DNA from: Balneolales bacterium
Lineage (GTDB): Bacteria > Bacteroidota > Rhodothermia > Balneolales > Natronogracilivirgulaceae
DNA: 46,521 nucleotides
Reading direction: 5' to 3'
Assembly: GCA_007120385.1 (NCBI GenBank)
Contig: SKNT01000013.1
Location: 1-46,521 of the forward strand
A model generated the notes under the pieces. That model was not told where the DNA came from. It was given only the letters and a program-made list of their open reading frames with translations, and searched no databases. This document shows, piece after piece, positions 2,490 through 46,521 of this stretch; the stretch's first letter is position 1, and each line of letters begins with the position of its first letter. The position numbers were made by a program, and so were the translations under genes.

Positions 2490-2629
2490 GAAGTTTTCGC
2501 CGGTTTGTGAGGTCTGTTGAAAGGATTCCGGGTTTCGCCGGTCTGACGGGTATCAGGCAGCGAGGGCCCCTGTTTACTCAAGGGATGCCGTCATCTGCAT
2601 AATATAACGCCTGCTTTTGGCAAAATTGC

Positions 2630-29229: not shown

Positions 29230-30783
29230 TCAGAACCGGAACACAAGCCCGCTCCAGGCAGCAGACAGGTTCATTCCCCCTCTCGTGGAGGACGGTGTGG
29301 TCATGGCACCGAAGGAAAATTCGAAATTCTTGAAATCCAGTCCGGTTCCGGCGGACAGGTTGACTCCGGAATAACCGCCTGCCCTCATCCCGATACGTAC
29401 CGGCCAGACTCTCAGGACGCGATACTCCGCCCCCAATGCAGTGTAGAACCTGCGGCTGTTGACTCCGCGGTTGTTCGTGCCTTTTCCTATATCGAGCATG
29501 ATCCCGAGCCGTCCCATGGTCAGCGATCCGCCGGCATGGATCATTGGGGTGAGACCCACCCGGTGGCTGTTCACATCGCGCGGAACAAAATTCCCGTAAA
29601 TATCGCTGCCGATACTGTCTTCCAGTACATAATCCAGATAGTTCGAAAAGTCACCGTCAAATTCTTCGTCAATATATTCGAAATCGACGTTCAAGCCCTC
29701 CCATAGAAAAGTATCCCTTGCCCTGAAATCACCGGCATTCCTGCTGAATCTAATTCCGCCCAAGTCTGTAATTGCCAGGGAGGCCCGGAGAATCTGAGGG
29801 CCGGTACCGATGACCGGCAGGGATACATCCGTCATATACCATTCAAAGGTGGCGCCGAGATCCATGCCGAATCCGGTTCCCTTATGACCCCCGAGATCCG
29901 AGAAGGAGTCGTCATCCAGAAAATCATCCAGTACCGCATCCTTGTTTCCCCGGATGCGACGCTCCTCGTAAAAGGCCGTCAGATCACCGGTCAGGTTGCC
30001 TGTTGTGAGAATGTAGTACTCAAAATCATGGACAACGGTCGATTCAAGATCCCGGCCGGACACCTGGAGTTGAGATTCCAGTCCCATTTTGACGTAACCC
30101 AAGCCAAAAAGAATTTTGGGTGCGGCTCCGGCAAATACACGCATCGACCCGGGAGCATGATCATCGCTGTTGCGCCAGACTTCCATGGCAAAGCCGAACG
30201 ACAACTCCCACATGCCCAGCAGCTCGGTTGAGAAGTCCACTTTCCTGGGATCCCCGAAAACCTCGCTGTTGAGACCGGTGAGCACAAGTTCAAACATGCC
30301 CTTGCTCATTCCCGCGTTTCCGAGGGTTCGCGCCCTGGCGGCCACACTGAAGGCCATGTCATCCCTTCGGTAACTGGCACCGAGTGGTACGAGATCCACA
30401 CCAAACCCGGCTCTGGATGCGGAATGAGCGCTGCTGCCGAACCATTCGTCCGAAATCTGAAGCGCTCTTTGGGTGTCGATGGTTTGACCTTTTGTGAAAT
30501 GCTCGTTGTACAGTTTGATTTTGACCAGGCTGCCACCGGCTGAAGAATGGACCCCGCCTATGATGCCGAAGTTGACCCGCGTATCGTGATCGGAGATCAT
30601 GAGATTGGCAGGGTTTACAAAATTGGCGTGATAACCGGTGATGTAGGAGCTTCCGCCACCGCCAAGCGCCGTGCTGATCGAAGTACTGTGGAGTGCCTGG
30701 GCAAGTGTGCTGTCCACCGATGCCGCCGATAACAGAATGGTTATAGAGACAGAAATTATGTGATTTTTAAATAATCGGGTCAT
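29230..30783 (-). CDS. DUF5723-like secreted outer-membrane protein
   Basis: A 517-residue protein with a signal peptide (residues 1-28, ITILLSAASVDSTLAQA). The mature N-terminus, STALGGGGSSYITGYHANFVNPANLM, carries the G...A..NPAN pattern shared by DUF5723 and other Bacteroidota barrel proteins. The rest is alternating strands with Asp/Gly-rich turns, and the C-terminus ends in an aromatic residue (GLVFRF), as expected for a beta-barrel handled by the BAM complex. It starts 13 nt after the 1077-codon lipoprotein gene ends, so the two are co-translated. A functional role is not known. A complex of lipoprotein and barrel at the outer membrane is the natural inference. Confidence 0.75.
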   Translation of the reverse strand: MTRLFKNHIISVSITILLSAASVDSTLAQALHSTSISTALGGGGSSYITGYHANFVNPANLMISDHDTRVNFGIIGGVHSSAGGSLVKIKLYNEHFTKGQTIDTQRALQISDEWFGSSAHSASRAGFGVDLVPLGASYRRDDMAFSVAARARTLGNAGMSKGMFELVLTGLNSEVFGDPRKVDFSTELLGMWELSFGFAMEVWRNSDDHAPGSMRVFAGAAPKILFGLGYVKMGLESQLQVSGRDLESTVVHDFEYYILTTGNLTGDLTAFYEERRIRGNKDAVLDDFLDDDSFSDLGGHKGTGFGMDLGATFEWYMTDVSLPVIGTGPQILRASLAITDLGGIRFSRNAGDFRARDTFLWEGLNVDFEYIDEEFDGDFSNYLDYVLEDSIGSDIYGNFVPRDVNSHRVGLTPMIHAGGSLTMGRLGIMLDIGKGTNNRGVNSRRFYTALGAEYRVLRVWPVRIGMRAGGYSGVNLSAGTGLDFKNFEFSFGAMTTPSSTRGGMNLSAAWSGLVFRF

Positions 30784-30796
30784 GGCCGTATTAAAT

Positions 30797-33700
30797 TCAA
30801 TTCACCTTGACGGAAATTTTAAAGTTGGCATTCACACTCAGGCTGATGAAATCATCGGCCCTGACCTTGACTTCCCCGGAGAGGTCGTCTCTACTGGTGG
30901 CAAGTTCTCCAATCAACCTGATGTAGCGAGACCGGTTCAGGTAATCAAGCTGCTCCCCGGTTAGCCGGATCTCCGTCATATCGCTTCTCGGGTGCTGGAC
31001 AAACCTGGTTACGGTGTTTACTTCGGCAGCGGATAAAGAGAATGTAACCGGGTCAACCGGTTGTCCCCCGGTAGTGGCAACCACCTGCTCGTTTGCGTCC
31101 AGGAATTCCAGCGTCATCCCTGCATCGAATGGAAGGCCGTTTTCATAGGAAATATAAAGGATGGCTTCGGTGATCTTCAGGTCGTCTTCCCGGTCCGGCA
31201 GATCCGAAAGGTCTGCAGAAAACGTTTCCTCTATCGCCGCCGGCTCTCCCTCTGCCGTTGAAAGATTGATCGGAATGTCAATCCCCATGCGGGAATCGAA
31301 AACCACCGGATTGATAACGAATCCCTCCTCTTCTTCCTTGTTTATGACAATGTTTCCAACAAACCGTATCTCCACGGGCAGATTGCTCAGGAAGGCCTCG
31401 ACATTGGTCGTTTCTGAATCAAACCGGATCACCTGATTGCGGATGACCTCTCCCATGTTCTGCGCCGGTTCCATCTTGAATGCGACAAGGTCTGAGCGTG
31501 GAATCTGTGCGCCGCGCATGTAGAGATTGCCATAGTCGTCGCCGGGTCCAACTTCCCGGACTGTTCCCGGTTTTCCGGAAAGGAACACTTTCTCACCCCT
31601 GTCATTGACCCCCAGGATGGCTCCAATGACGGTTCCCCTGACCCCCAGGTTGGTATCATAGATCAGGTCGAAAGAGGGGTTCACCAGATGCAAACCCGAC
31701 AGACGCTCGGAAAGCTCTTGCAGATCCTCGAGCTGGGTCACTTCCGCTTCGTTGTCGTTGAAAAGATCTACGATTCCGTCGTCGCCGTCATCATCCCCCA
31801 GAAACTCCACTCGTTTCCGTACCTCTCCTACAGCCGCGCGGATATTCAAATCCTGAATATCCAGAGAAGCGGAAAACCTCTCGGAAGCGTGAACCGTACG
31901 GATCGTATCGGCTCCACTGGCATTCCTGGTGTTTTCCGTTACCGCCACCAGGTGGTAGACCAGAAGATTGTCCGGTGCGTAGATCCGCACATTATCAAGA
32001 GAGGTGCTGAATGCGGGCTGCGGTCTCGTATCCGAACTTCTTCGAATACGGTTGCTGCCGGTCAATGCTATCCAGAGTGAATCTCCGGGCAGGTACATTC
32101 CACTACCGTCCCGGTCAGTCCGGATCCCCGGAAAGGAGACAATCAGGGTATCGATATCCAAATCAATTTCATTGACAATGTCTTGAATTCTGAGCAAACC
32201 GCTTTCGATCTCGATAAAATGGCCTCCTCGAGTCATGCGGAAGTCCTCATCATCCATCTCCACCTCCCCGGTTACGGTAAAACGCTGTGGTTTCAGGACC
32301 GATGATGCCGAACTGAGCGTTGCCGACCCTTCCATTACCGTCACGATCAGATCCGAGGAGCGAACAGTTGCCGGTTCCGTGGATCCGGGCGAGGAAGCGA
32401 TGCCGGTATAGGAGATCCGGTTGGATATTCCGGCCTGTTCCAGCGGGACGGTCACGATTCGGGTTTCAAGGGGCGGTATCGTAATATTGCTGATTTCGGC
32501 GATATCCGAACTCATTGCAAAAAAACGACCGGTGTTCTTGGCAGTGAACGCTTCTGCATTGAACAGTGTGAGGTGATCAATTACCAGCGGGACTTCGCTC
32601 CGGTTGCTGAATTCCAGTTGCAGTTCGCCTTCTTCCACCTCGGCATTCACAAAGTCCCCCTCCACATTCCTGGTATCCTCCAGCAGAATATCCTCCTGCG
32701 GGTCGATGTCAGACCGCACTTCCGTAAATTTCAATTCCGATGTGCGGGAAGTGATCAGGAAGAACTGGTTTCTTTCAAGGGTGAGACCGCCTCCTCCAGG
32801 CGTGCCCATGCTTACCTCATAGGTAATCTCCCTTGTGAGCTTCTGTCCGCCAAGATCCACGATCACACCGGCCGTCTCATCAGCTGAAAGGCTGGTGGCG
32901 CCGGGCCGGGTCAAATTGGCCAGCTCCTTAGGTTCATCGAGGACTTCACCATCGGAATTGAAAAGCGTGATGCGCGGCATGGAGGAAAGAGTACTGTCCC
33001 TGAGCTCCAAAGGAGTGTTGTTGATCATGATCAACTCGAGCTGGTATGCTTCTCCCGGACCGGGTTGTCCGGAGACCATGGCATAATCAAAATTCGGGTT
33101 GGATGAGTTGATGGGCTCGATTTCCGGGCGCAGGACCTGGGCTTTGATGTTGCCGGTTGCGCTTCGTGCCACCAGGTTTTCCTCTATGGAAATTATCCTC
33201 AGTTCGCCGGGTTCATCCGCCATATTCTGAGCCTGCCACTGAATTTGCAGCTCAAGGGCCAGATCGATCTCCAACCGGTCCCCCGGTTGAAAGTACACAA
33301 CGGCTTCAGCAGTCTGACCATGGGCAACGGAGCCGAATTCCACCGTATGGCCAACGGCAACCGGTGCCGAATTTGCGTTACTGAGCAATGTGACCGCCAG
33401 ATCCTGGATGTCAAAACCAAGTTCGTTTGTTATTACGAAGCGCACCCCTCCACTCTCTAATTCAGCCTGGTCGAAATCTCGCGGCTCCAGTGTAATAGCA
33501 ACCGAATGGGCGGCAGGACCAGGGACAGGCGTACCCTGACCGAAGCCACCGGCATCCAAACCTGTGGCCGCTTCGAAATCCGCCGAACCCGACGCATCAA
33601 ATTCAATCTCAAAAACGCCTACCTCCATGGCCTCATCTTCCATCTCCTCCGGTTCACCGCTAATCACTCCGATTTCCGATTCAAACGTGGAAGAAAAATT

Positions 33701-34030
33701 GTCAATTTCGAGGTTGCCGATTTCGCTCTCGATTCCGGTCTCCGAAACATCTGCTTCGGGGATGACTTCATCAAGGGAGCCAATTTCGAAATCCACGGAT
33801 GTCGATAAAAAGACCAGGCGGTCGGCACCAACCTGAAACAGATCCCTGAAGTTCTCACTCGTGGTATCAATGATCGCACCTTTTCCGTCACCAATAAGCT
33901 GATAATTGGTTTTTTTTATCAGCGGGATATCATATGACTGCTGAAGGTTGAAGTCCGGGCTGGACGGGCGTTCACATGAAAAGACGGCCACCAAGAGTGC
34001 AGCGGCAACTGCCATCCGTGTAATTTTCAT
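30797..34030 (-). CDS. Large surface or periplasmic lipoprotein, family not recognised
   Basis: A 1077-residue lipoprotein. The signal peptide MKITRMAVAAALLVAVFSC ends in a plausible lipobox with Cys19. The mature part opens with ERPSSPDFNLQQSYDIPLIKK-like sequence, then a very acidic segment (about 75-180: many Glu/Asp and repeated 'EIG' strand motifs such as VDFEIGSLD and ESEIGNLEID). The remainder is almost all beta-rich, with recurrent strands of the type 'L..TREITYEVSM' and no catalytic motif I can see. Large beta-sandwich surface proteins of this kind occur in Bacteroidota, but I do not know a named family. It is the first gene of a minus-strand pair with the DUF5723-like barrel. Confidence 0.72.
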   Translation of the reverse strand: MKITRMAVAAALLVAVFSCERPSSPDFNLQQSYDIPLIKKTNYQLIGDGKGAIIDTTSENFRDLFQVGADRLVFLSTSVDFEIGSLDEVIPEADVSETGIESEIGNLEIDNFSSTFESEIGVISGEPEEMEDEAMEVGVFEIEFDASGSADFEAATGLDAGGFGQGTPVPGPAAHSVAITLEPRDFDQAELESGGVRFVITNELGFDIQDLAVTLLSNANSAPVAVGHTVEFGSVAHGQTAEAVVYFQPGDRLEIDLALELQIQWQAQNMADEPGELRIISIEENLVARSATGNIKAQVLRPEIEPINSSNPNFDYAMVSGQPGPGEAYQLELIMINNTPLELRDSTLSSMPRITLFNSDGEVLDEPKELANLTRPGATSLSADETAGVIVDLGGQKLTREITYEVSMGTPGGGGLTLERNQFFLITSRTSELKFTEVRSDIDPQEDILLEDTRNVEGDFVNAEVEEGELQLEFSNRSEVPLVIDHLTLFNAEAFTAKNTGRFFAMSSDIAEISNITIPPLETRIVTVPLEQAGISNRISYTGIASSPGSTEPATVRSSDLIVTVMEGSATLSSASSVLKPQRFTVTGEVEMDDEDFRMTRGGHFIEIESGLLRIQDIVNEIDLDIDTLIVSFPGIRTDRDGSGMYLPGDSLWIALTGSNRIRRSSDTRPQPAFSTSLDNVRIYAPDNLLVYHLVAVTENTRNASGADTIRTVHASERFSASLDIQDLNIRAAVGEVRKRVEFLGDDDGDDGIVDLFNDNEAEVTQLEDLQELSERLSGLHLVNPSFDLIYDTNLGVRGTVIGAILGVNDRGEKVFLSGKPGTVREVGPGDDYGNLYMRGAQIPRSDLVAFKMEPAQNMGEVIRNQVIRFDSETTNVEAFLSNLPVEIRFVGNIVINKEEEEGFVINPVVFDSRMGIDIPINLSTAEGEPAAIEETFSADLSDLPDREDDLKITEAILYISYENGLPFDAGMTLEFLDANEQVVATTGGQPVDPVTFSLSAAEVNTVTRFVQHPRSDMTEIRLTGEQLDYLNRSRYIRLIGELATSRDDLSGEVKVRADDFISLSVNANFKISVKVN

Positions 34031-34336
34031 GACCTGGGGGGTGTAAATACTTGTAGATTGTTAGCTAACTTAACCAGCTGCAACAAGATTTGCGGCGATC
34101 TTTTCTAAAAAAAGAAACTGAGCAAACTGATGACCGGCAATCGAATAATACCATATCCACTGATAATATCCGGAAATAATATACTGCAGATGTAACGTGT
34201 ATGACTTATTGCCAATGTAATCAGTTTTTTTGCGATAACAATGCTTTTTTATCTGCTCGTTTCGGCTTTGGCATGGTACCGAAAACTGTGTTTTTTTGCA
34301 GCGGCGTGACCCGGAAGCGGTGACACTGGCAGGGAG
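34031..34336 (-). other. 306-nt intergenic gap between lipoprotein gene and tRNA-Ser
   Basis: This region is AT-rich, with several homopolymer runs (TTTTTTT and AAAAAAA) and a 10-bp perfect palindrome GTTAGCTAAC at 34060-34069, about 30 nt before the lipoprotein ATG. No convincing reading frame or RNA gene is seen. It should carry the promoter for the lipoprotein operon, but no clear TTTG / TAnnTTTG pair is visible. No good terminator for the tRNA gene could be found. Confidence 0.4.
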
Positions 34337-34424
34337 CGGAGAGAGAGGGATTCGAACCCTCGGTACCCGGTTAGGGTACACTCGCTTTCCAGGCGAGCCC
34401 GTTCGACCACTCCGGCATCTCTCC
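34337..34424 (-). tRNA. tRNA-Ser(GGA)
   Basis: On the minus strand an 88-nt class II tRNA folds cleanly. The acceptor stem is GGAGAGA with TCTCTCC and discriminator G. The D arm has GGTCGAACGGG, and the anticodon stem CTCGC/GCGAG encloses loop CTGGAAA with anticodon GGA, reading UCC and UCU. A long variable arm (TACCC/GGGTA) and the T arm GAGGG-TTCGAAT-CCCTC complete it. The long variable arm confirms serine. The 3' CCA is not encoded (CTC follows), so it is added after transcription. Confidence 0.97.
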
Positions 34425-34731: not shown

Positions 34732-37700
34732 TTGATATTGAATCGTCCGCACCTCAATCTTAAACGCATCCGCTTACGGCCAACAGGCCAGATGCCGGTC
34801 AGCAGCAGCCCCGCAGAAATTTTCAGCGCAGAGGGCAACTTCCGACTGTCACGCCGTGACATGATCACAGCAATGGCCCTGATGGGATCCATCCCTGTGC
34901 TTCGCTCTATCGGCACAACCTGGCTGGGCAGCATCCGTCTGGAAAGATCCAAAGGGATGGCCACTTTCCATTTCAAGGGAAAGGCAAGGTGGACCATAGA
35001 TGTCAAACGATTCACCGGCAGGCCGAGGCTCGAAATCCATCGCAAGAACAAAGAAATTATCCTTGGACTTTATGGCGCATTTTATCCGGGAACACATATA
35101 CCTGCGGGGTTCACCTGCCGGTTGAAGCCGACGTTCAGCGGCTGGAAAATGACAATGATAACTGATACGGGAATCAATGCTGCCGTGTCATTTGAACAAT
35201 GGCTGCTCGGCCTGAGTCGATTATCCGGCCTGCTGCCAAAAAAAGTGGATGTCACCCAACCGGCGAACAAATTTCAGGTTAGCATCCCTGCCGGGTCCAT
35301 TCACTCTCTTACTGCCGGATGGATACATTCATTCGGAAACGGCATAAAACTTGCCATTGCTCTGGGAGGTTTCGGGTTCGTCTCAAACGGCATAACCATC
35401 AGACCGCCTCCTGATGATCTCCAATCCCTGTTCCTCCGGCCTCCTTCACGCCGCTCAGTCGTTTCTTTCAACAGTCCTGAGGCATACATCAGCGTCAAAA
35501 CAAAACCATCAAGAGACAGGCAAGGTTTCTCCATTGCAAATACCCGGTTTGACCATCTCACCGTAGAACTTGGTGAAAGCACGCGCAAAAACCAAAGAAC
35601 GGCAATCCTGGCCAAGGCAGACCTGATAGATGAGCCGGCGCTCATCCATCCCTCCCCGGTATTGAAAGATGCCTCAGGAGGTGCAATACGTTTTTCGGCC
35701 AGCAAGCTGACCTACGCTGCTGAATTTACTGCCAATGGAAGCCATGAGCTGGTATTGGCATCAGCTGCCGAACAGATTCACTGGACCTATTGCGGTGATG
35801 AGGGGATGATGCTTGGATGCAGCGGGTATGGCGATGACATGGAATTTGAGATCAGGAATGCCGAGCTGGTGCGAACCAGCTGCAAGGCCATGCTGCTGGG
35901 CACCATGCTGCCCCCGGCCGGCGCCAGGGTCATCACGCAGCCGGTGCTTTTGCCGGAACCCGTTCCCATTACCGTCAACTTTGACCATTCCCTGAAACAA
36001 GGACGAAAGAGGGCATCGGGCAACGAAATCCGGATATCATTGCCCGGAGATAAACCGCCCACATTACGGTTGAGCAATCCAACCGTTGAATTGATCCGTC
36101 CCGATGACCTGGTCGTGCAGCGGTTTGAATTTGTGAACATGGCCTTCCGTGGTGAAGGCGGTGACCGCGTCATCACAGCAACATCCGGAACTCCTTACAT
36201 GATCGTCTGGCATCAGCCTCAGAATATAGGAGAAGAAGCCTTCTACGAGCATGCACCCAACCTGGATTTGAGCAAGGCCGATGAGTCCGATCCCGACCTG
36301 TCGGATGATGTTGACAAAACCGTACCCTATCCCCCGCCTGTCAATGCGCGGTATGCCGGACCCAGCCGCGTGGTCTACAAGGTGCCTCCGGGCACAAACA
36401 TCCAGTACCGCCTTGAAGATCTGCTGGAAGCGTGCCGCACTTTTGAGATGAATGTTGCTCCCACGGCGCTCCCGCCCCCTGCAGAGCTCTCCGGGTTGCA
36501 TTTCACAGGAAATCTGGCACCCCCTGTAACGGTCACGGCCATTGATCAGATGAGGCAGACAAGCCGGTCCGCACAGCGCCTGCCGAATGAAACAAACTGG
36601 AACTTCATTGCCCGAATGGCTGAAAGCCCTGCGCTCAGGGGTGCCATCAGCGTGACGGAGGGCATCAAAACCATTCCCGCTCCCGGCGAACAGCGTGTAG
36701 ATGCCTCACAGCTCATTCGGGCGCAGCGGGATATCAGTCTCTCACGGCACTCCATGATCACTGCCGATGCCGTTCAGCCCATACATCAGATCGGCCAGAT
36801 TGCAACAATACTCCCACCGGTTCCCTCTCCTCCCGGACCCAATGAAACGGCAATCGAAGCTCCCTATCGTCTGATTGTTTCTCCCAACCGTTTGAACGGA
36901 TGGGCGCATCGCATGGACCCCGGTCAGTCGCAGAAAACAGGGCGCATCGAACTCTGGCACTCCCGGCTCGGAATGCGCCGGCCGGATGGTACTATCGATG
37001 AGAGGCAGCGTTGGGGCCGAACGCTCCGGGCCATCTGGTACACCGATCCACTTACGGATGACTTCAAAAGCAATTCACAAAGCGAGCTGGTGCACGAACA
37101 CAACCCGTTCCGGATGTCGCTTGACTGGTTCGACCGTCATAACCTGGTGCACCTGACCTCCAACTTCAGGCTCAACGATCCCGATGGGGGCAGCTACCTG
37201 CCGCGACCTGTTGACGTAAACCAATTCATGCTCAGCTCACTCGGGGCATGGATGAACGTGCGCGGTGCGTGGGATGTGCTCCCGTCAAATCTCACCGTAG
37301 AAGAGTGGCTGCACCGGGGCACGCTTGGCCGGGACCATTACGTCAAGGTGGTATATGCCGGCAATCTGTTCCCCTTCGGACACCGGGCATCACTGGTCAA
37401 GGTTACGGAACGCAAGTTTGAACCCATGCCGGGGCAGCCCTCCGTAAAAGTGGCCTACCTGAGGCAGCGCATGTTCATCATCGTCCGCGAACCCGTCATC
37501 GTCCAGGCATTGGGCAGCACCCCCGATGACCGGAAAATGCCATTCAAGAGCATCCGGATCACCACCCGGGCAACGCCCATACTTGACGATCCCGGCAACA
37601 GCGATTACGATGACAGAAAGCAGTCGTTGTTCTGGCCGCAGGTTAACGGCAAGGATTTTCATTTTAACATGACCTTGGAGGATGTCGAAGGCGGCCTGCA

Positions 37701-39834
37701 TGAAGTTACCATGCCCCTGGCGTTTGTGGGAAAGGAGATTCTGGACGCAGAAGCGGCCCAGTCGCCGACTCCCCTTCCTCAGCTGATCACCGATTTCAAT
37801 GAAGGTCAGGTCGAGGCCCGCCGCAAACGTCCGTTCGGCGGACAAATGGTCTCCTTTGCTCCGGCCACAACCCCCGGCGATACCGCCTTTGAAACGGCCA
37901 ATGTTGAATTCCACACCGTCCAGAAAACCGCCCACCCATTCTTTGCTCCTGTTTTGAACTCGGCTGATATTGAGGCGCCGGCTGTATCACAGCTTACAGG
38001 CAGCGACCAGTCGGGCATCCGGTACAGTGAGCGCTATCTCTCGAACGGATTCACTTCGGGAGCCGGCAGTTCCAATGCCGGCGAAATTTTCCTGGATCTG
38101 CTCTCTCCTCAGGACTTCAACGTGGAAGGCCAGGGCGACAAGGCCGGCGGATTGGTCCAGCCAAATATGAGCATAACCGCTTTCTCCCGTAAATCGGGAA
38201 CTGTGGGCGGCGACTCGGACACCTTTGCTGATGGAAATTTCGATCCGGAAAAATACTTTGGCGGCGGCGATGACGTGCCGCAGGATCTTAAGAGTGCCTT
38301 CTCCCCAAAACTGTTCGGAGTCATAGACCTCTGGAATATCCTGGAGTCGGCCGGCATCGACCTGCCCGGCAAGGCACCCCGGTTTGTCACCGAATCGCTT
38401 AATGTGATCGAGAAGCTGATCAATGAAACCGGAAGGCTCCATCAGCTTACACAAACGCTTCCTCCCGGTTCCATTGCCGCACTGAACGACCTTCAAAACG
38501 CGGCAGATCAGCTGCTGGCCACTTTTCAATCTGCGGTCAGCAATCCCGGAACGTTCTCGGCAGCCACGTTGCAGAATCAGCTTCAGGCAGCCGTGACTGC
38601 ACTGGGCAATGCGGAGACGCAGCTAGCCGGTACTACAGCACTAAGCGAAAGTCTGCGCCGTGAGGCATTGTACACGGTTGCCTCGGTGAGTCAACTCATC
38701 GACGCCCCCGCAAAGATCACATCCATCCTGGAAGAATTTCAAAATTTCATACAGGCCATTGAGATGGCCCGGGAGATGCGGGTCCGCCTGGAGTGGAAAC
38801 CCGACATCAGGCAGTGGCCTCAATCCAACCCGGTCTTCATTCCATCCATTGAAGGTGTTGGCGACGGCTCTTTTGTGCTGGCCGTGGAATTGAACGCCAA
38901 CCAGGGAAGCAGCAATGGCTCGGGCGGACAGTCCTTCGAAGTGCTCTGCTGCCTTGACAACTTCACCATCAACCTGATCGGCGAAAAGACGTTTGTCAAG
39001 GTCTTTTTCAACAAGATGGCCTTTTCGGTCCGGACCGGGAAAAAGCCGGCCATCGACATCGATTTTCGCGGACTCGAATTTGCCGGTCCGCTGGCCTTTG
39101 TGGAGCGGTTGCGCGCCCTGATTCCGCTCGACGGTTTCAGCGATCCCCCGTATGTGAATGTGGATACCGGCGGTATTGAAGCCGGGTTCACTTTTGAGAT
39201 TCCAACCGTTGGATTGGGCATCATCACCCTCCAGAACGTGGTGCTTGGTGCAAAGACCAACATTCCGTTCATCGGTGATCCACTGAGCATCGGCTTCCAC
39301 TTCAATACCCGGGAAACCCCCTGCACTATAACGGTTTATGGAATCGGAGGAGGCGCCTTTGTCGGCGTGGCTGTCAACATGCGCGGCCTGCAGATTGTGG
39401 AAGCAGCCATTGAGTTCGGCGGGTCGGTCGCGTTCAACGTAGCAGTTGCCAGCGGCAGCGTCCACATCATGGCCGGCATCTATTTCAAGATGGAAAAACT
39501 TGGGGATGTCGTTGAGATCACATTAACCGGCTATCTGCGCATCGGCGGCAAGGTAACGGTCATTGCGCTCATCGGCATCTCAATAGAGCTGCGGATGGAG
39601 CTCTCGTACATCGCCACAGGCCTTTTCGGCAAGGTGAGGGGAAAGGCGTCCCTGGAGGTGAAGGTAAAGGTAGTCTTTTTCTCCATCGGGGTAACCATAA
39701 CCGTTGAGCGGCAGTTTGCCGCCACGAACAATGACCCGACGTATCTCGACGCCATGGGACATTCATACTACGATCCCGTCCTCCTTGTGGATGTGGATCC
39801 ATGGGAACAGTACTGCACCGCCTATGCGGAATAA
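34732..39834 (+). CDS. Giant protein 1 (1700 codons), Tat-like leader, uncharacterised family
   Basis: A very large protein without a named family known to me. Near the N-terminus a twin-arginine motif, LSRRDMITAMALMGSIPVL (Arg41, Arg42), suggests Tat export, although the hydrophobic core is short. Conserved-looking blocks are YRLIVSPNRLNGWAHR (about 714-729), GRIELWHSRLGMRR, and HYVKVVYAGNLFPFGHRASL (about 869-888) with VTERKF. A helical segment (about 1225-1355, e.g. AALNDLQNAADQLLATF) separates this from a C-terminal domain (about 1480-1690). That domain has long regular beta strands such as LSIGFHFNTRETPCTITVYG and KASLEVKVKVVFFSIGVTIT, ending ...WEQYCTAYAE. From memory these blocks occur in large uncharacterised proteins of Actinobacteria and others. 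Start is TTG at 34732; TTG 34738 is better spaced from AAGG at 34727, and ATG 34792 is another option. Confidence 0.75.
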   Translation: MILNRPHLNLKRIRLRPTGQMPVSSSPAEIFSAEGNFRLSRRDMITAMALMGSIPVLRSIGTTWLGSIRLERSKGMATFHFKGKARWTIDVKRFTGRPRLEIHRKNKEIILGLYGAFYPGTHIPAGFTCRLKPTFSGWKMTMITDTGINAAVSFEQWLLGLSRLSGLLPKKVDVTQPANKFQVSIPAGSIHSLTAGWIHSFGNGIKLAIALGGFGFVSNGITIRPPPDDLQSLFLRPPSRRSVVSFNSPEAYISVKTKPSRDRQGFSIANTRFDHLTVELGESTRKNQRTAILAKADLIDEPALIHPSPVLKDASGGAIRFSASKLTYAAEFTANGSHELVLASAAEQIHWTYCGDEGMMLGCSGYGDDMEFEIRNAELVRTSCKAMLLGTMLPPAGARVITQPVLLPEPVPITVNFDHSLKQGRKRASGNEIRISLPGDKPPTLRLSNPTVELIRPDDLVVQRFEFVNMAFRGEGGDRVITATSGTPYMIVWHQPQNIGEEAFYEHAPNLDLSKADESDPDLSDDVDKTVPYPPPVNARYAGPSRVVYKVPPGTNIQYRLEDLLEACRTFEMNVAPTALPPPAELSGLHFTGNLAPPVTVTAIDQMRQTSRSAQRLPNETNWNFIARMAESPALRGAISVTEGIKTIPAPGEQRVDASQLIRAQRDISLSRHSMITADAVQPIHQIGQIATILPPVPSPPGPNETAIEAPYRLIVSPNRLNGWAHRMDPGQSQKTGRIELWHSRLGMRRPDGTIDERQRWGRTLRAIWYTDPLTDDFKSNSQSELVHEHNPFRMSLDWFDRHNLVHLTSNFRLNDPDGGSYLPRPVDVNQFMLSSLGAWMNVRGAWDVLPSNLTVEEWLHRGTLGRDHYVKVVYAGNLFPFGHRASLVKVTERKFEPMPGQPSVKVAYLRQRMFIIVREPVIVQALGSTPDDRKMPFKSIRITTRATPILDDPGNSDYDDRKQSLFWPQVNGKDFHFNMTLEDVEGGLHEVTMPLAFVGKEILDAEAAQSPTPLPQLITDFNEGQVEARRKRPFGGQMVSFAPATTPGDTAFETANVEFHTVQKTAHPFFAPVLNSADIEAPAVSQLTGSDQSGIRYSERYLSNGFTSGAGSSNAGEIFLDLLSPQDFNVEGQGDKAGGLVQPNMSITAFSRKSGTVGGDSDTFADGNFDPEKYFGGGDDVPQDLKSAFSPKLFGVIDLWNILESAGIDLPGKAPRFVTESLNVIEKLINETGRLHQLTQTLPPGSIAALNDLQNAADQLLATFQSAVSNPGTFSAATLQNQLQAAVTALGNAETQLAGTTALSESLRREALYTVASVSQLIDAPAKITSILEEFQNFIQAIEMAREMRVRLEWKPDIRQWPQSNPVFIPSIEGVGDGSFVLAVELNANQGSSNGSGGQSFEVLCCLDNFTINLIGEKTFVKVFFNKMAFSVRTGKKPAIDIDFRGLEFAGPLAFVERLRALIPLDGFSDPPYVNVDTGGIEAGFTFEIPTVGLGIITLQNVVLGAKTNIPFIGDPLSIGFHFNTRETPCTITVYGIGGGAFVGVAVNMRGLQIVEAAIEFGGSVAFNVAVASGSVHIMAGIYFKMEKLGDVVEITLTGYLRIGGKVTVIALIGISIELRMELSYIATGLFGKVRGKASLEVKVKVVFFSIGVTITVERQFAATNNDPTYLDAMGHSYYDPVLLVDVDPWEQYCTAYAE

Positions 39835-39855
39835 AACCAATCGGGAGTTCAACAT

Positions 39856-42800
39856 TTGCCATCACAAGAATTCATACTGACTGCCCTGCCCAAAACCCCG
39901 GAAAACTGGACAGCCGGGAACGGGCTTTACGTTTCAGGCCATTTTGCCCCGAGACTGAGCAACGGCACTCAACTGGGTCAGTTCACCGGATTCACCGCCG
40001 GCGGCATGTCCTGGCCTGAGACGGTATCCGGTCTGACTTTTTCCGTCAACCTGAATGGCACCGACCATCCGGCCGAAGTGGTCTCCGAGCCCGATCCAAC
40101 TCTCTGGAACCATCTTTTCAGCGACGCCACCCCGGTTCAATCCCACGAACTTCCCGACCGCAAGGATTTACGGATCCGGTCTTTCCCGATCCTCAATCTC
40201 TATGATCAGCTAAAAGAACTGTATGAGTTCACGGCAGAAGAATCTCCCGAAGAGTTCATCCCCGTCCGTCATCGCCACCATCCCAGAAGGGTATTCGATA
40301 CCCGCTCATCCATTCTCCTCGACAACCTGGTCAACAGCGCCGGCATTCTGGCCGATGATGTGACCTACAGGCGGCTGGATGGTATCGTGACCGGGTTCAT
40401 GTCCGGACCGACGCCCTACATTACCCCGGAGAATATAAATCAGATTGCACAAGCAGCATCGGTCAGCCCGCTGGCCGTGCAGTTCCATATGCTTCAGCGC
40501 TTCTACAACCGTCCGCGCCTGCAGATTTCACCTCCGCCCAAGCTGCCTGAAATTGATTTCCACACCATGCTGGGCATCCTCGAAGATTACCCGGTTCTGC
40601 TGCGAAAACTCGGCGTTGTGGTGGATCTCAGGATTACCCCCGGCGATCTCCCATCCGACGGTTTTGTCTCCGTAACTATCGATGGCGATATCGGTGGTCC
40701 CGTCACATCGATGCGAACCCGGTACGAGTACGACGCTGCTGGCTCCCTGTTTGTGTGCAGAGGGGGCGACGGTAACGCGGCGGATGTGCGCAGCGGACGG
40801 CTTCGCCTTGACAACCCCGACCGGTACCGTTTGATCCAGGTCGATGCCGACAGCATGACAATGAAGGCCATCAACCTTGTCGGGAACCTCTGGCTGCGAA
40901 ACAACCAGCACGTGGGCAGCAACTACGCTTCCCCGCAATCCGAGAGCCTTCCAGCCCTAAAAACGGCCGGACTTGCAGTCGTCAAACCCATGAACGTGCA
41001 GGTGATTCACCAGGGCTTTTTAACGGCACATACCCTGAACGTGCTGTACATGGCAAACGAGCCGCCGGAGGCCTACCAGCACCTGAGGTTCGAAGACGTG
41101 CTGCAGGGGTATATTGTGGATATATATGACGAAGAGCGGCAATCCTGGTATTCGCTCTGCCGGCGGAGAGGAAGGTACCGGATCGGGGCACCTCCGGCCG
41201 ACCTGATGGAGGACGATGAGGGATTTGTGGCCGATTCGGTGATCACCAAAAATGCCGACGGACTGGAAGATGACCTCTATGTCCATGATGCAGTATTTCA
41301 GTGGGATGGATGGAGTCTTGTGGCTGAAAAACCGGGCAACACCATCATCCCGGATGAGGTGGCGGATGACGCGGAACCGGGTTCACTTTCTCACGGCTAT
41401 GAACGATCGGGCAGAGTAAAGCAGACTCCACCGGTTGATTTTCCCCTGGAGGCTCATTTCATTCCCCAGCCAGGATCCCTGCCAAAATTGCGGTACGGGC
41501 GACGCTATCGCATCCGGGCGCGTGCCGTTGACATTGCCGGGAATGCCATCCCGCTGAGACCAGCATCCGGGGACATGGCGCATGCTTCCAACCCGGTGCG
41601 TTTCGGCCGTTTTGAGCCGGTTCTCCCCCCTGCCATTTTGTTGCGGACCCGGCTCACGGAGGGTGAATCTGCCGAGCGGATGGTTATTCGCAGTAATTAT
41701 GATATGACCGCACAGGAGTATGGCAGCAATCCGGATGTGCAGCAGGCCATTTCTGCTTATGGACACGCCTATCTTCCAAACAATCAGCGCCACTTTGCAC
41801 CGGCAAAGACGGCCCAGATCACCGCAGAGATGCACGGGGAGTTTGACGAAGCGATCGGCAAGGGGCAGAATATCCAATCCTGGTTCCATATTGCCGTTAA
41901 AGAGCGGGGTACGTTCCTTGACCCCATGATCGTGGATACGAGTACCGGCCAGGTCACCATCCCTGCCGAGGGGATGGAATTGATTACCCCGTCAAATCTT
42001 CCGCCTGACATCGAACCCGTACAAAGCCTCGAAGACCTGAATCCGGGTGATTCCCTGGCCACGGGACAATATGTGCTTCACAACACCGATCAGGTGCGCC
42101 TGCCCTACCTGCCCGATCCGCTGGCAGGAACAGCCGCATTCCGCGGCTTGCCGGGCGCAGAAGATGACTCGGTTCTCGTCTCCTTCAACCTTGATTTTCC
42201 AGATGCGGAACCATTCCGTGTCGTGATCCTGGAAGGCGATGGCCCACCGCAATTCCAGGCCAATGATCCGGAGTACGGTCCGCGTGTACTCCGCGTCTAC
42301 TTGAAAAAAGCCGAAATTGTAAAGGTTCGTCTGAGTGCGTCATTGAGGGAAGAAGACCTGCAGAAAATGGGGATATGGCACTGGCTGAGCGAGAAAGGCA
42401 TCGGCAGCGGAAAACTGTCGCAGCTCCGGAGCCTGATACTCCGCGGCCGCCACTGGATGTTCACACCATCCAGAGAGCTGGTGCTGGTCCATGCCGTGCA
42501 GCAGCCGCTCGAAGTGGCGGCGTTCAACACCCTTGCTGCGTCAAAACTGCAGATCGGCGACACCTTTGCCCGGCTTTCAGGCAGTTTCAAATTCCACTGC
42601 AAGAGTACCGGACGGCTCGATTTCCTGGCGGTATGGGATGAACCATTCGATGATCCAACAAGACCGCTGCCTCAGGATGGTATCGAAGGAAGGGAAGCCA
42701 TCCACAAGGAAGGGCGGGTTCTGGAAATGCCGATCGAGCCTTTCTACCAGGACATTGACACGCTCAGCTTCCCTGTAAACGTGAACAGCATCCCTGGCTA

Positions 42801-44079
42801 TCCGTATCCCAAACAGGCTCAGGCAGAATTCTACGAACATGACTTCGGGGACACCAAACACCGGCGCGTGCAGTACCTGCTCAATGCCACTACCCGGTTC
42901 AGAGACTATTTCCCACCTGAAATTTACGAAAAATCCGACCAGATCAGCCGGAATGGTCCGCACAGGGAAATCAGCGTGCCGAACTCAGCGCGTCCGGATG
43001 CGCCCAGGGTGCTTTACGTAATTCCAACATTCGGATGGGAGCGCGAGCATGTGGCCGGCGGAAATGTAAGCCGTCGCTGCGGTGGCGGGCTGCGTGTCTA
43101 CCTTGACAGGCCCTGGTACTCCTCCGGTGAGGGGGAACTGCTCGGGGTGGTAATGGCCGGTTCGGCGCCGTCTCCAGGCATGGGACTTGCCGCGCCGGCA
43201 ACGCCCGCCCTGCCACAGCTCGGCCCGCTTCAGTTTGCCGCTCAGGGTTTCACTCCCGACAACCCGCTCCGCCTGCTTACCACCCAGTGCGGTGTGGATC
43301 CCATCTGGAAAAGTGAGGAAACACCTTCGAACCTCAACATATCCCATTTTCCGGATGCGGGACGGACGCAGGACGGATTGACTTTTGAGGAGGTGGAAGG
43401 ACTGTATGCCTCTGTGGCTGGACATGAGGTCCATTTTGATGAGGAGCGTGGTCTCTGGTACAGCGACATCGTGGTGGATTTGGGCCAGAGCTACTATCCG
43501 TTCATTCGGCTGGCTCTGGCAAGATACCAGCCCGAGTCCATTGCCAACGCCCACTTATCCCGCATTGTGCTGGCTGACTTCATACAACCCGCTCCTGACA
43601 GAACCGCCGCCGTCATGCGTCCGACGGCATCCGAGATCCGGGTGATGGTCTCGGGTGGATTCGGCCTGAACAAGATATCAACGGGTTTCGGCCTCAATCC
43701 GATCGGACAGCAAGGTCAGGATCCGATTCGATTAACCCACCGGGTAGTGGCAACCCTGGAACAGCGTAATCTGGGTTCCCTCGATGCCTGGCTTCCGTCT
43801 GCCGATCAGTTTACGGAAGTAGAGCTTCCTCCGGTACAGCAATACGGTGCCCGGATGTTGTGGATGACCACCTTTTCACTTGATCCTCCCGACAAGGACG
43901 ACACCATTATTGCCGCACCGGTAACCGAGAAAGAGTACCGGGTAGTGGTCAAGGAGTACGAAATGCTGCCGGCGGATCAGGCCCCACAACTTGACACAAC
44001 CACAACCATCAGCCCAAACATTGGCAGGCGGATTGTATATGCGGATGCCATGGAAGTTCCGCCCGCCCGGCAACTTTGA
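39856..44079 (+). CDS. Giant protein 2 (1407 codons), uncharacterised partner of giant protein 1
   Basis: A 1407-residue protein with no signal peptide or membrane segment that I can see. The N-terminal block FILTALPKTPE...GLYVSGHFAPRLS with a following SWPETVSGLTFSVNL is a pattern I recall from large uncharacterised proteins in actinobacteria (LTALP...VSPRLS...WP..L..L.FSV). Other notable blocks are RYRIRARAVDIAGNAIPL (about 549-566), ERMVIRSNYDMTAQEYG (about 607-623) and HFAPAKTAQITAEMHGEFDE (about 646-665). The TTG start is supported by GGGAG (39843-39847) 8 nt upstream. It follows giant gene 1 by 21 nt and is followed 1 nt after its stop codon by the outer-membrane gene, so the three are coupled. 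The N-terminal SQEFILTALP start argues against a missed upstream leader. Confidence 0.75.
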   Translation: MPSQEFILTALPKTPENWTAGNGLYVSGHFAPRLSNGTQLGQFTGFTAGGMSWPETVSGLTFSVNLNGTDHPAEVVSEPDPTLWNHLFSDATPVQSHELPDRKDLRIRSFPILNLYDQLKELYEFTAEESPEEFIPVRHRHHPRRVFDTRSSILLDNLVNSAGILADDVTYRRLDGIVTGFMSGPTPYITPENINQIAQAASVSPLAVQFHMLQRFYNRPRLQISPPPKLPEIDFHTMLGILEDYPVLLRKLGVVVDLRITPGDLPSDGFVSVTIDGDIGGPVTSMRTRYEYDAAGSLFVCRGGDGNAADVRSGRLRLDNPDRYRLIQVDADSMTMKAINLVGNLWLRNNQHVGSNYASPQSESLPALKTAGLAVVKPMNVQVIHQGFLTAHTLNVLYMANEPPEAYQHLRFEDVLQGYIVDIYDEERQSWYSLCRRRGRYRIGAPPADLMEDDEGFVADSVITKNADGLEDDLYVHDAVFQWDGWSLVAEKPGNTIIPDEVADDAEPGSLSHGYERSGRVKQTPPVDFPLEAHFIPQPGSLPKLRYGRRYRIRARAVDIAGNAIPLRPASGDMAHASNPVRFGRFEPVLPPAILLRTRLTEGESAERMVIRSNYDMTAQEYGSNPDVQQAISAYGHAYLPNNQRHFAPAKTAQITAEMHGEFDEAIGKGQNIQSWFHIAVKERGTFLDPMIVDTSTGQVTIPAEGMELITPSNLPPDIEPVQSLEDLNPGDSLATGQYVLHNTDQVRLPYLPDPLAGTAAFRGLPGAEDDSVLVSFNLDFPDAEPFRVVILEGDGPPQFQANDPEYGPRVLRVYLKKAEIVKVRLSASLREEDLQKMGIWHWLSEKGIGSGKLSQLRSLILRGRHWMFTPSRELVLVHAVQQPLEVAAFNTLAASKLQIGDTFARLSGSFKFHCKSTGRLDFLAVWDEPFDDPTRPLPQDGIEGREAIHKEGRVLEMPIEPFYQDIDTLSFPVNVNSIPGYPYPKQAQAEFYEHDFGDTKHRRVQYLLNATTRFRDYFPPEIYEKSDQISRNGPHREISVPNSARPDAPRVLYVIPTFGWEREHVAGGNVSRRCGGGLRVYLDRPWYSSGEGELLGVVMAGSAPSPGMGLAAPATPALPQLGPLQFAAQGFTPDNPLRLLTTQCGVDPIWKSEETPSNLNISHFPDAGRTQDGLTFEEVEGLYASVAGHEVHFDEERGLWYSDIVVDLGQSYYPFIRLALARYQPESIANAHLSRIVLADFIQPAPDRTAAVMRPTASEIRVMVSGGFGLNKISTGFGLNPIGQQGQDPIRLTHRVVATLEQRNLGSLDAWLPSADQFTEVELPPVQQYGARMLWMTTFSLDPPDKDDTIIAAPVTEKEYRVVVKEYEMLPADQAPQLDTTTTISPNIGRRIVYADAMEVPPARQL

Positions 44080-44080
44080 G

Positions 44081-45991
44081 ATGCACGATCAATTCACATA
44101 CCGGCAACCGATTCTGGTTTTGCTCTTTGCTGCTGGGTGCCTGCTCTGTGCAGATCCGGCTGCAGCGCGCCAGGACCAAAACACCAGCCGGCCGATCCAG
44201 CTGATCTACGGCGGATACCACAAGATGTATTTCGAAACTGCCAACCGCCAGCATTTCGGATCCTTGCACCCGCTGACACTCATGCGATGGGAACTGCAGC
44301 CAACCGTCAGCGCCTATGGCATCCCGCTTTCCATGAACCTTTTCTACACCACCGAAGACAACAACCCCGGCGGAAACGCCGGACAGTTCCGGTTCGGGCT
44401 GAGCCTGAGCAGCGACCAGCTGGAACGAACGCTGAGAGATCGCATACAGAATGAGATGCATCAGTCGGAACAAAAGCTGATGGATTACCAGCCGTCCGTG
44501 ATGTCGGAAGCAGATCGATCCCAAATTTCAGACCGGATGAACCAGCTGACCGACCTTCAGCACAACCTGGATGTCTCCACCGGCCGTCTTGATCAGCTGC
44601 AGCACCTTGGTCTGATCAATTCCACGGAAAGACTTGCCATGCGATTCCCGATGCTGGGTATCGGGTCAGCATATCCGCAGTATTCACGGTTTGTAATGCA
44701 GGGGGTCACGGTGAGCGGCTTTCATGTTGAATTTATTCCCGGAAGAGTTTTTCTGGGCACAAATATCGGTAGAGTCAGGAATCCCGTTGGAGCGCCCGGA
44801 TTCTCAGGTTTTGGTGCTTTTGATAATGATCGCAAACTTTATGCCGGTCGTATCGGGTACGGGCGCCCGTTTGGGCGGCATGTACACCTGATGGGTGTAC
44901 TGGTTGACGAATCACATGATGCGCCTTTCAATGAAAATGCGTCAGACAGACATCCTCAAATGAAGAATTTCATTACCGGCCTGAAATTCCGGATGGGTGC
45001 CATTCGCGACAGGCTGGACCTGCAGGGCGAACTGGCTGTCTCATTCCTTACAAGGGACACGCATGCGCCGGAGATTGTCAATGACGACATAGGCAGCATT
45101 CCCCTGCTTTCATCCCTCATCCAACCCAACATCAGCAGTTCGGGGGATGTGTCCGGCATGCTGGATGCCACGCTCCGCCTGCCGGGACCGGGGACCAGGC
45201 TGCGTGCCGGAATTCAATATATAGGTCCCGGTTACATAAATCTGGCCTCTCCCTCCCTGCGAAATGACCTTATCGAATACCTTGGGGGAATCGAACAGTT
45301 GTTTATCCGGCGGCAGGTGACCATCAGTGCGAATTTTCGAACCGATCGCAACAATCTGGACAATCTGAAAAGTTTCACCCGCACCGCAACCCGGTACGAT
45401 CTGCAACTGGCTTTGAATTTCCGGGATTTGCCCTGGGTCAGACTGCAATACATTCCCATCCAACAGAAAAACAAGGCCCGTGACCAGACTAACGGAAGTG
45501 TCGGCGAGTTTACCTACAATACAACTGTTTTAAATGCCATCAGCGGCTACTCGGTGCCGGTCGGTACACTGATGAGCACTACCACAGTCAACGTCTCAGG
45601 TCAGTTCACTAGCACCGACCTGCACAATGCCGATGCTACTTCATTCCTGATCGGCCTGAATCAGAATATCGGTTTCGGGAATGCCAGTGTAAATGCAGGC
45701 TACCAGCGCTTTTCCTTTACCCGGCTGGAGAGCACAATGGTCCGCAACGACGTCACCCTTGGGGGTACCATTCGCATTCTCGGTATCTGGCTGCATGAAA
45801 CCGGATTGAGAAATTCTTCTGGCAGAGATCAGGTTCGTGCAACCGGCCTTTGGTACAGAACGTCCATCCCGATTCGGTATCTGGGACTGTTTGAACTCAT
45901 GGTCGACCACAACCGGTTTACCAACTCCATGTTTTCGGACAGTGCATTCAGCCAGGCCAAATTCAGCGCTTCCTTAACCCGGTCATGGTGA
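44081..45991 (+). CDS. Outer-membrane beta-barrel protein with periplasmic coiled-coil insert
   Basis: A 636-residue exported protein. The ATG at 44081 is preferred because it gives MHDQFTYRQPILVLLFAAGC...AAARQ as signal peptide, and the upstream open frame lies inside giant gene 2. The signal contains LLFAAGC, which could also be read as a lipobox (Cys at about 20), so lipidation is possible. Residues about 110-180 form a charged helical region with heptad character (RTLRDRIQNEMHQSEQKLM; DRMNQLTDLQHNLDVSTGRL). From about 190 to the end alternating amphipathic strands form a probable barrel ending ASLTRSW, with an aromatic terminal residue. The start lies 1 nt after the giant gene 2 stop codon, indicating translational coupling. 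I do not recognise the family; it may be a TonB-independent porin-like channel or anchor for the giant proteins. Confidence 0.75.
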   Translation: MHDQFTYRQPILVLLFAAGCLLCADPAAARQDQNTSRPIQLIYGGYHKMYFETANRQHFGSLHPLTLMRWELQPTVSAYGIPLSMNLFYTTEDNNPGGNAGQFRFGLSLSSDQLERTLRDRIQNEMHQSEQKLMDYQPSVMSEADRSQISDRMNQLTDLQHNLDVSTGRLDQLQHLGLINSTERLAMRFPMLGIGSAYPQYSRFVMQGVTVSGFHVEFIPGRVFLGTNIGRVRNPVGAPGFSGFGAFDNDRKLYAGRIGYGRPFGRHVHLMGVLVDESHDAPFNENASDRHPQMKNFITGLKFRMGAIRDRLDLQGELAVSFLTRDTHAPEIVNDDIGSIPLLSSLIQPNISSSGDVSGMLDATLRLPGPGTRLRAGIQYIGPGYINLASPSLRNDLIEYLGGIEQLFIRRQVTISANFRTDRNNLDNLKSFTRTATRYDLQLALNFRDLPWVRLQYIPIQQKNKARDQTNGSVGEFTYNTTVLNAISGYSVPVGTLMSTTTVNVSGQFTSTDLHNADATSFLIGLNQNIGFGNASVNAGYQRFSFTRLESTMVRNDVTLGGTIRILGIWLHETGLRNSSGRDQVRATGLWYRTSIPIRYLGLFELMVDHNRFTNSMFSDSAFSQAKFSASLTRSW

Positions 45992-46018
45992 TCACATTCC
46001 CTGCTTGAAAAAACACAT

Positions 46019-46521
46019 ATGAATAGCCCCGCAAACATACTGATACCCTTTCTGACCGTGTTGTTCCTTATTCCGGCAACCCGGGTGAATTCGCAGGACA
46101 TTGTGATTACCCGCATCATGCCGCCTGCAGCCAACCAGCTCAGTGCAGCAGACCTGTGGCAGGTGGAGCTGACAAACCTGTCGAGCTCGCCGCTGGAGGT
46201 GTACATGATTGGCACAGTGGAACTTGAGGGGTCGGGACTTATAATCGAAGCCCGTTCAGCCGTCTTTCCGATCATGCCAGGATTGAACCGTCTCACTGGA
46301 ATGGAAGTACAGCCTGTGCGAGTCAGTTATGTCTCATCACGATACCGTGATGCGGTCTTTCGAACCGGTAATTTTCCTGCGGGAAATTATACCCTTTGCG
46401 CTACGGCACATGATGCCGGAAGCGGTCGGGAACTGGGACGAGACTGCCTGTTTCAGGTCGTACAGCCCTTTTCACCGCCTCAGCTTGTTTCACCCGTCAA
46501 CGATATGGTTGTCCAACAGCC
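46019..46521 (+). CDS. Secreted protein with fibronectin/Ig-like beta features, 3' end cut by window
   Basis: The ATG at 46019 opens a frame that runs past the window end; about 167 residues are visible. The N-terminus MNSPANILIPFLTVLFLIPATRVNSQ is a signal peptide with cleavage near NSQ-DI. The visible mature part is a beta-rich domain with two cysteines, in NYTLCATAHDAGSG and GRDCLFQVVQP. The pattern 'FPAGNYTLC...G..LG..C' followed by PPQLVSPVND is one I recall from Bacteroidota secreted proteins that precede fibronectin-III-like modules. It starts 27 nt after the outer-membrane gene, so it belongs to the same operon. The rest of the operon lies outside this window. Confidence 0.78.
   Translation, partial: MNSPANILIPFLTVLFLIPATRVNSQDIVITRIMPPAANQLSAADLWQVELTNLSSSPLEVYMIGTVELEGSGLIIEARSAVFPIMPGLNRLTGMEVQPVRVSYVSSRYRDAVFRTGNFPAGNYTLCATAHDAGSGRELGRDCLFQVVQPFSPPQLVSPVNDMVVQQ

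Follow-up and report, generated by a model that had tools for sequence, protein, structure and literature searches.

A strictly co-inherited pair of giant proteins with a twin-arginine leader and envelope-type operon partners in a Balneolales bacterium

The stretch of DNA analysed here (hereafter the window, 46,521 nt) makes up an entire contig (C177) in a draft Balneolales genome (2.96 Mb, 91% complete). It carries two giant genes whose families are always inherited together, giant 1 first, as a transcription-unit-like pair present in at least 16 phyla. At this locus giant 1 bears the signal of a Tat-exported protein, and the pair shares its operon with a barrel-type protein and a Sec-secreted Fn3-like protein. 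We read the two giants as an obligate two-protein extracytoplasmic assembly with a structural or capture role, docked to the outer membrane. This reading is given barely less than an even chance, and the function is untested.

The operon and its sequence families

The operon is a run of four + strand genes separated by 21, 1 and 27 nt, in agreement with the spacing and the giant sizes given by the first-pass annotation. Giant 1 (34732..39834) and giant 2 (39856..44079, 21 nt further on) both open with a TTG start and encode proteins of 1700 aa (186 kDa) and 1407 aa (156 kDa), respectively. A single nucleotide separates giant 2 from the gene of a barrel-type outer-membrane protein (44081..45991, +, 636 aa), which is followed after 27 nt by that of a secreted Fn3/Ig-like adaptor-type protein with a Sec signal (46019..46521, +, ATG at 46019), truncated by the contig end. 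The mechanically picked reading frame of the barrel gene opens further upstream, at 43991, and ATG 44081 was taken as the start; starts picked in this way may conceal or create leaders in high-GC genomes. The window shows 167 residues of the fourth protein, homologues of which have 206-993 aa, the fourth gene in the sister loci L029 and L030 encoding 331-332 aa. The label 'TANFOR', considered for this secreted protein, found no match in NCBIfam and was dropped. Directly upstream of the operon, and outside the module, lies a tRNA-Ser(gga) gene (34336..34424, - strand), which also stands upstream of the giants in L029, the sister genome, and may mark an old integration site. Divergently from the operon, positions 29230-34030 (- strand) encode a DUF5723 protein and a putative lipoprotein of 1077 aa, which adjoin the giant operon in L029 too.

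None of the four operon genes is covered by a Pfam or NCBIfam family. Searches of Pfam, NCBIfam, PHROGs, PADLOC and PDB sequences with the giants returned no more than coiled-coil or generic beta-sandwich noise: PHROGs yielded only a coiled-coil match to giant 1 (E 2.5e-4), and the PADLOC models of known anti-phage defence systems matched neither protein. With Foldseek, no BFVD entry matched giant 1 below 1e-3, and no whole-protein fold match to either giant was found in PDB or BFVD. Neither giant therefore matches, in these libraries, a known family with an assigned function, and the earlier description of a module of unknown function stands. A literature search likewise returned no paper on the giants, only general ones on Tat, Ig-like and A2M proteins, and none on DUF6603. 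Members of the giant 1 family have roughly 1000-3300 residues and those of the giant 2 family 1230-1900, with about 30-40% identity across phyla. The sequence blocks that the first-pass annotation had named as shared (ELWHSRLG, FPFGHRASLVKVTERKF, ERMVIRSN and RARAVDIAGN) sit in the most conserved columns of the alignments.

DUF6603 (PF20248) was suggested by eye as the parent of the giant 1 C-terminal domain; its members are also giants, with a glycine-rich amphipathic C-terminal beta region and operons containing further giants. Profiles do not support the relationship, as the DUF6603 profile has no Pfam match in the giants, the window's own genome is negative and the profile comparison (hhalign) is not significant (E about 0.05-0.13). 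The DUF6603 giants at L169:3411-14645, L170:201-13026 and L171:1-14224, which share their operons with other large proteins, one of them beside a subtilase, are a separate, uncharacterised multi-giant system.

Co-inheritance and distribution of the two giants

In 297 genomes sampled evenly from the phylum and searched with profiles, strong matches (E < 1e-100) to giant 1 and to giant 2 occurred in the same 13 genomes, and the remaining 284 had neither; these counts leave out a few weak coiled-coil or distant matches. Across 87 loci from many phyla the distance from the end of giant 1 to giant 2 was -13 to +121 nt, with a median of 18. The arrangement is not due to chance: order and spacing recur in these loci and the presence of the two giants is identical in all the sampled genomes. 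Eight giant 2 genes counted as unpaired: six are truncated by contig ends, and a seventh (L051) belongs to a rhizobial pair that is adjacent by annotation. The last (L115) was considered as an exception to co-occurrence and rejected, its genome holding two giant 1 genes elsewhere. Pairwise distances in the two families are correlated (r = 0.86, permuted maximum 0.18), although much of this is expected from shared ancestry alone. Independent scattering of the two genes, which would have undone the module proposed by the first-pass annotation, is thus not observed: the giants are inseparable, and the third genes that accompany them recur only in the Bacteroidota/Chlorobiota group.

Some loci depart from the usual layout. 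A divergent pair of 1760 and 1401 aa (L168:8849-18357, genome G095), of which the second protein matches giant 2 (E 7e-9) and the first has no giant 1 match, is possibly a remote branch. A 2115-aa protein (L167:3-6347, G250) combines the giant 1 C-terminal domain (E 2e-33) with another N-terminal part and has no adjoining giant 2. In Achromobacter pulmonis (L104:1-10100), the full giant 1 gene is preceded by two truncated tandem copies of its 5' part, with identical 300-nt repeats between the copies.

A scan of named genomes found 279 stretches encoding relatives of giant 2, and the best 80 of these 279 loci fall into 16 named phyla. The pair is found in Actinomycetota, as the first-pass annotation had stated, and in Pseudomonadota, Acidobacteriota, Chloroflexota, Cyanobacteriota, Bacillota, Myxococcota, Armatimonadota and Verrucomicrobiota among others, with plasmid copies as well. 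In the genome collection, the closest named relatives of the window are Balneolales/Balneolaceae MAGs (74-84% identity in giant 2). Plasmid-borne pairs were identified in Streptomyces, Rhizobium, Cupriavidus and Diaphorobacter. Moreover, plasmids of Sinorhizobium, Rhizobium, Agrobacterium and Ruegeria, most of them typed conjugative, carry expanded pairs of 2277-3311 and 1560-1899 aa (both genes intact), giant 2 of the Agrobacterium pair being annotated as two genes. Horizontal transfer of the pair is likely because the giant 2 tree, built by a quick method on the existing alignment, mixes phyla (28 phylum changes over 57 tips); mis-binned contigs could account for single cases. The pairs of a Geobacter (L060) and a Cyanobium (L118) are 72-73% identical across phyla and are joined in this tree, a likeness that reflects either a recent transfer or a mis-assigned contig. 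An origin from phages or contractile injection systems (eCIS) was rejected, since searches of viral contigs and phage genomes yielded no copy of the pair and PHROGs gave nothing other than the coiled-coil match.

The leader of giant 1 and the export of the pair

The leader of giant 1, which the first-pass annotation had not named, is of the twin-arginine (Tat) type (LSRRDMITAMALMGSIPVL, residues 39-57). Within the leader region (34732..34926, +), a conserved N-terminal 'LNL..(I/L)R' motif precedes SRRDM (residues 40-44), which is followed by a hydrophobic stretch (SRRDMITAMALMGSIPVL), and TatC is encoded in the same genome (E 1.4e-59). A Tat-like leader was detected in 34 of the 77 giant 1 proteins with a visible 5' end, in 28 of 1031 neighbouring genes (a background of 2.7%) and in none of 88 giant 2 proteins. 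The test was a simple pattern rather than a trained predictor, and there are no localisation or expression data. It overlooked four loci where the motif is present by eye (L051, L105, L142 and L161), and in L074, one of the 34, it matched an upstream false start, the real motif following. The 43 giant 1 proteins without a detectable leader include those of most Actinomycetota, beta-proteobacteria, Paenibacillus and Chlorobium-type genomes, which means that not every pair need be exported. The leader state changes only five times on the tree, and the Tat leader is therefore a property of clades. Giant 2 has no leader, nor a hidden one, since a homologue is confidently modelled from residue 1 (pLDDT 95), its N-terminus being a beta strand.

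A Tat signal on giant 1 and none on giant 2 suggests that the two are co-exported as a folded complex, an inference from sequence patterns alone. Such hitch-hiker export is established for other complexes (PMC4273604). The hitch-hikers PaoABC and FdnGH (PMC4273604, PMC13186574) likewise combine one signal-bearing subunit with a leaderless partner encoded by an adjacent gene; unlike the present pair, they are cofactor enzymes, the largest named having 142 kDa, against 186 plus 156 kDa and no recognised cofactor domain here. Size is the main difficulty for a Tat route. A 2026 review (PMC13186574) cites FdnGH, with 142 kDa, as one of the largest Tat substrates known, and substrates of up to 150 kDa are reported (PMC6708511); giant 1 alone has 186 kDa, the pair 342 kDa, and the rhizobial plasmid pairs exceed 500 kDa by length. 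An AxA cleavage site is present in only about a third of the giant 1 leaders, and its absence from that of the window allows giant 1 to be, possibly, an uncleaved membrane anchor.

A Tat leader on giant 1 is likewise seen in the expanded pairs of rhizobia, Agrobacterium and Ruegeria. On plasmid pC of Sinorhizobium meliloti (NZ_CP141215.1), a tatA gene of 55 aa (L051:24856-25023; Pfam TatA_B_E, E 2.4e-9) starts 50 nt after giant 2 of an expanded pair (3052 and 1766 aa); it is flanked by virB-type conjugation genes on one side and a relaxase gene on the other. Four other expanded pairs (L052, L210, L211 and L212) have the leader on giant 1, and no tatA was seen beside them. A parallel is offered by RSP/RSP2, large Ig-like (Big) proteins of IncHI plasmids (PMC6764697, PMC8730810), which are likewise two giant, exported proteins of the beta-sandwich type carried by conjugative plasmids, as are the expanded homologues of the present pair, and of which the second needs the first to appear outside the cell. 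However, no shared sequence family was found (Pfam is empty for the giants), the Big proteins leave through the conjugation secretion machinery and not, as inferred here, through Tat, and the present pair, which spans phyla, lies mostly on chromosomes.

Envelope partners, predicted folds and possible function

The barrel protein has a Sec-type signal, a helical stretch at about residues 115-175 and a C-terminal aromatic 'TRSW'. Nearly all full-length members of its family have a signal-like N-terminus and a terminal W, and a distant member weakly matches Pfam barrel families; the fold was not modelled. As recurrent third genes beside the giants, Fn3-like proteins occur in 17 loci and barrels in 11 besides the window, all in the Bacteroidota/Chlorobiota group. 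In the 297 phylum genomes both families are far commoner than the giants (barrel 123, Fn3-like 93), and the Fn3-like protein of Kapabacteria-like genomes bears RCC1 propeller repeats. Ten of the 13 giant-bearing phylum genomes have adjoining barrel and Fn3-like genes (split over two contigs in G231), and all ten have a Tat leader on giant 1; the other three, of Chlorobium type, have neither the two genes beside the giants nor the leader. The exact probability of this split is 1/286, uncorrected for relatedness. Neither the barrel nor the secreted protein belongs to the universal giant module. The earlier proposal that the module is plugged into a Gram-negative envelope is supported in this form: the pair is pan-bacterial, and the barrel and secreted families are those of Bacteroidota, where they also occur without giants.

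The combination of barrel and Fn3-like domain is widespread in Bacteroidota (L196-L204, in genomes G159, G255, G195, G235, G287, G215, G131, G127 and G150), fused in one reading frame in some genomes and beside proteins of 1600-4053 aa in others, the barrel subfamily and the Fn3-like domain having no covering Pfam family. The fusions are found in L196-L201; in L202-L204 the Fn3-like domain makes up the N-terminal part of 2000-4000-aa proteins, and the barrel gene adjoins. That the two are fused or neighbouring elsewhere suggests that barrel and Fn3-like protein cooperate. The families in L202-L204 are the same as those of the third and fourth genes of the window. The difference is that in those loci a protein of 1995-4053 aa carries the fused Fn3-like domain, whereas the window version is short and the payload is a separate two-giant pair.

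Giant 1 consists of the Tat-type leader, an N-terminal accessory domain (about residues 76-450), a conserved core (about 450-1170), a helical/coiled-coil region (about 1180-1345) and a C-terminal beta domain (about 1350-1665). The long form seen in the window has the 400-residue N-terminal domain, and a short form begins at the conserved core. AlphaFold2 models were made for homologues, with family alignments: a giant 1 from an Aminicenantes bacterium (L064, 1124 aa) had a mean pLDDT of 81, mostly above 90 in its core (60-660), and the first 1200 residues of a giant 2 from Geobacter sp. UBA698 reached 88.5. In the former, long strands form a meander in the C-terminal domain, and the last seven of these strands are mostly strongly amphipathic, as judged from the model and strand alternation. 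By the same evidence and the beta moment this domain was placed in the window at about residues 1432-1665 (39024..39726, +), with z = 4.9 for the moment of residues 1530-1665. Giant 2 is rich in beta-sandwich domains.

The preference of the first-pass annotation for a structural over a catalytic role remains an inference, as dozens of invariant polar residues could serve an unrecognised chemistry. The pair could be a very large enzyme, such as a heterodimeric hydrolase or transferase, which Tat would export in the folded state on account of a need for cytoplasmic assembly or a cofactor. Tens of W, H, D, E and R residues are invariant in both giants, and cofactor enzymes are often Tat-exported, but no enzyme family, motif or fold was matched in the searched libraries and no metabolic third gene recurs, which leaves this explanation unlikely without removing it.

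Similarly unlikely is a trans-envelope carrier of lipids or other hydrophobic ligands, TamB/TamA- or LptD-like, in which giant 1 would be anchored by its uncleaved Tat signal, the amphipathic C-terminal sheet would hold hydrophobic molecules and the barrel would form the outer-membrane end. The strong hydrophobic/polar alternation of the C-terminal strands, the barrel in the same operon, the leader without an AxA site and weak Foldseek matches of giant 1 to MTP, ApoB-100, LptD and porins would all suit such a carrier. The TM-scores of these matches are nevertheless below about 0.12 by query length, the core modelled at 60-660 is no beta groove, and pairs that lack barrel and leader exist in Actinomycetota and Gram-positive Paenibacillus.

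An effector against competitors or hosts, with the giants assembling like Tc or other pore-formers and the C-terminal strands entering the target membrane, would account for the patchy, horizontally transferred distribution, conjugative plasmids included, as well as for giant leaderless partners and membrane-like amphipathic strands. We consider it improbable: the C-terminus is a conserved end and not a variable payload, neither a Pfam toxin domain nor an immunity-like third gene was found, many members have a Tat leader, and most are single-copy and chromosomal.

Finally, a periplasmic protease-trapping or quality-control complex, with giant 2 as a thioester-less (type II) bacterial alpha-2-macroglobulin-like protein, is very improbable, since the top Foldseek matches of giant 2, to alpha-2-macroglobulins and complement C3, have TM-scores of 0.06-0.10 and reflect local likeness between generic tandem beta-sandwiches (the best alpha-2-macroglobulin match, with E 5e-7, TM 0.08 and rmsd > 30 A, does not share the global fold), and no Pfam MG or A2M domain was found in the window giant 2 or 13 relatives. 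MagD (PMC5764988), a type II protein, provides a periplasmic multi-protein precedent and resembles giant 2 in its large size, tandem beta-sandwiches, operon partners and weak fold similarity; it differs in the MG/A2M domains that the giants lack, in a global TM-score of about 0.1 or less and in the identity of the partners. A thioester alpha-2-macroglobulin was rejected for giant 2, the CxEQ motif being absent.

We therefore return to the extracytoplasmic two-giant assembly. Its most likely inferred step is that the giants fold and bind each other in the cytoplasm and that the Tat signal of giant 1 exports the complex, giant 2 hitch-hiking. Next in likelihood, the leader of giant 1, lacking a cleavage site, may keep this protein tethered to the inner membrane, and, third, the Fn3-like protein and the barrel of Bacteroidota-type genomes would dock the complex at or through the outer membrane, where it would replace the covalently fused giant served by the same barrel elsewhere. 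These export, tethering and docking steps are inferred, with moderate support. That the giants bind each other, and that they bind the barrel, is an inference as well, for which there is no complex prediction and no direct functional evidence. The last and least likely step is that the mature complex would serve, as a large beta-rich device, for structure, adhesion or capture. Such a job is considered the likeliest because the proteins are beta-rich, have no recognisable enzyme domains and lie in a surface-type operon; resting on fold class and the lack of known enzyme domains, it has little support.

Taken jointly, these elements would make up a machine of two giants, not described before, that is pan-bacterial and horizontally mobile, folds in the cytoplasm and leaves through Tat as a heterodimer of ~340 kDa, and that in Bacteroidota replaced the fused giant of a widespread barrel/adaptor surface system; we regard this combined reading as tentative and somewhat doubtful, including its heterodimer of more than twice the size of the largest Tat cargo named in the cited reviews. 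If true, the Tat part would open a long-standing question to direct test, namely how large a folded complex the Tat translocase moves, and whether the tatA beside the Sinorhizobium pair helps. The two strictly co-inherited giant families are without a name, a domain model or a solved relative, and the barrel and Fn3-like families define a modular Bacteroidota envelope platform that is fitted with different giant payloads.
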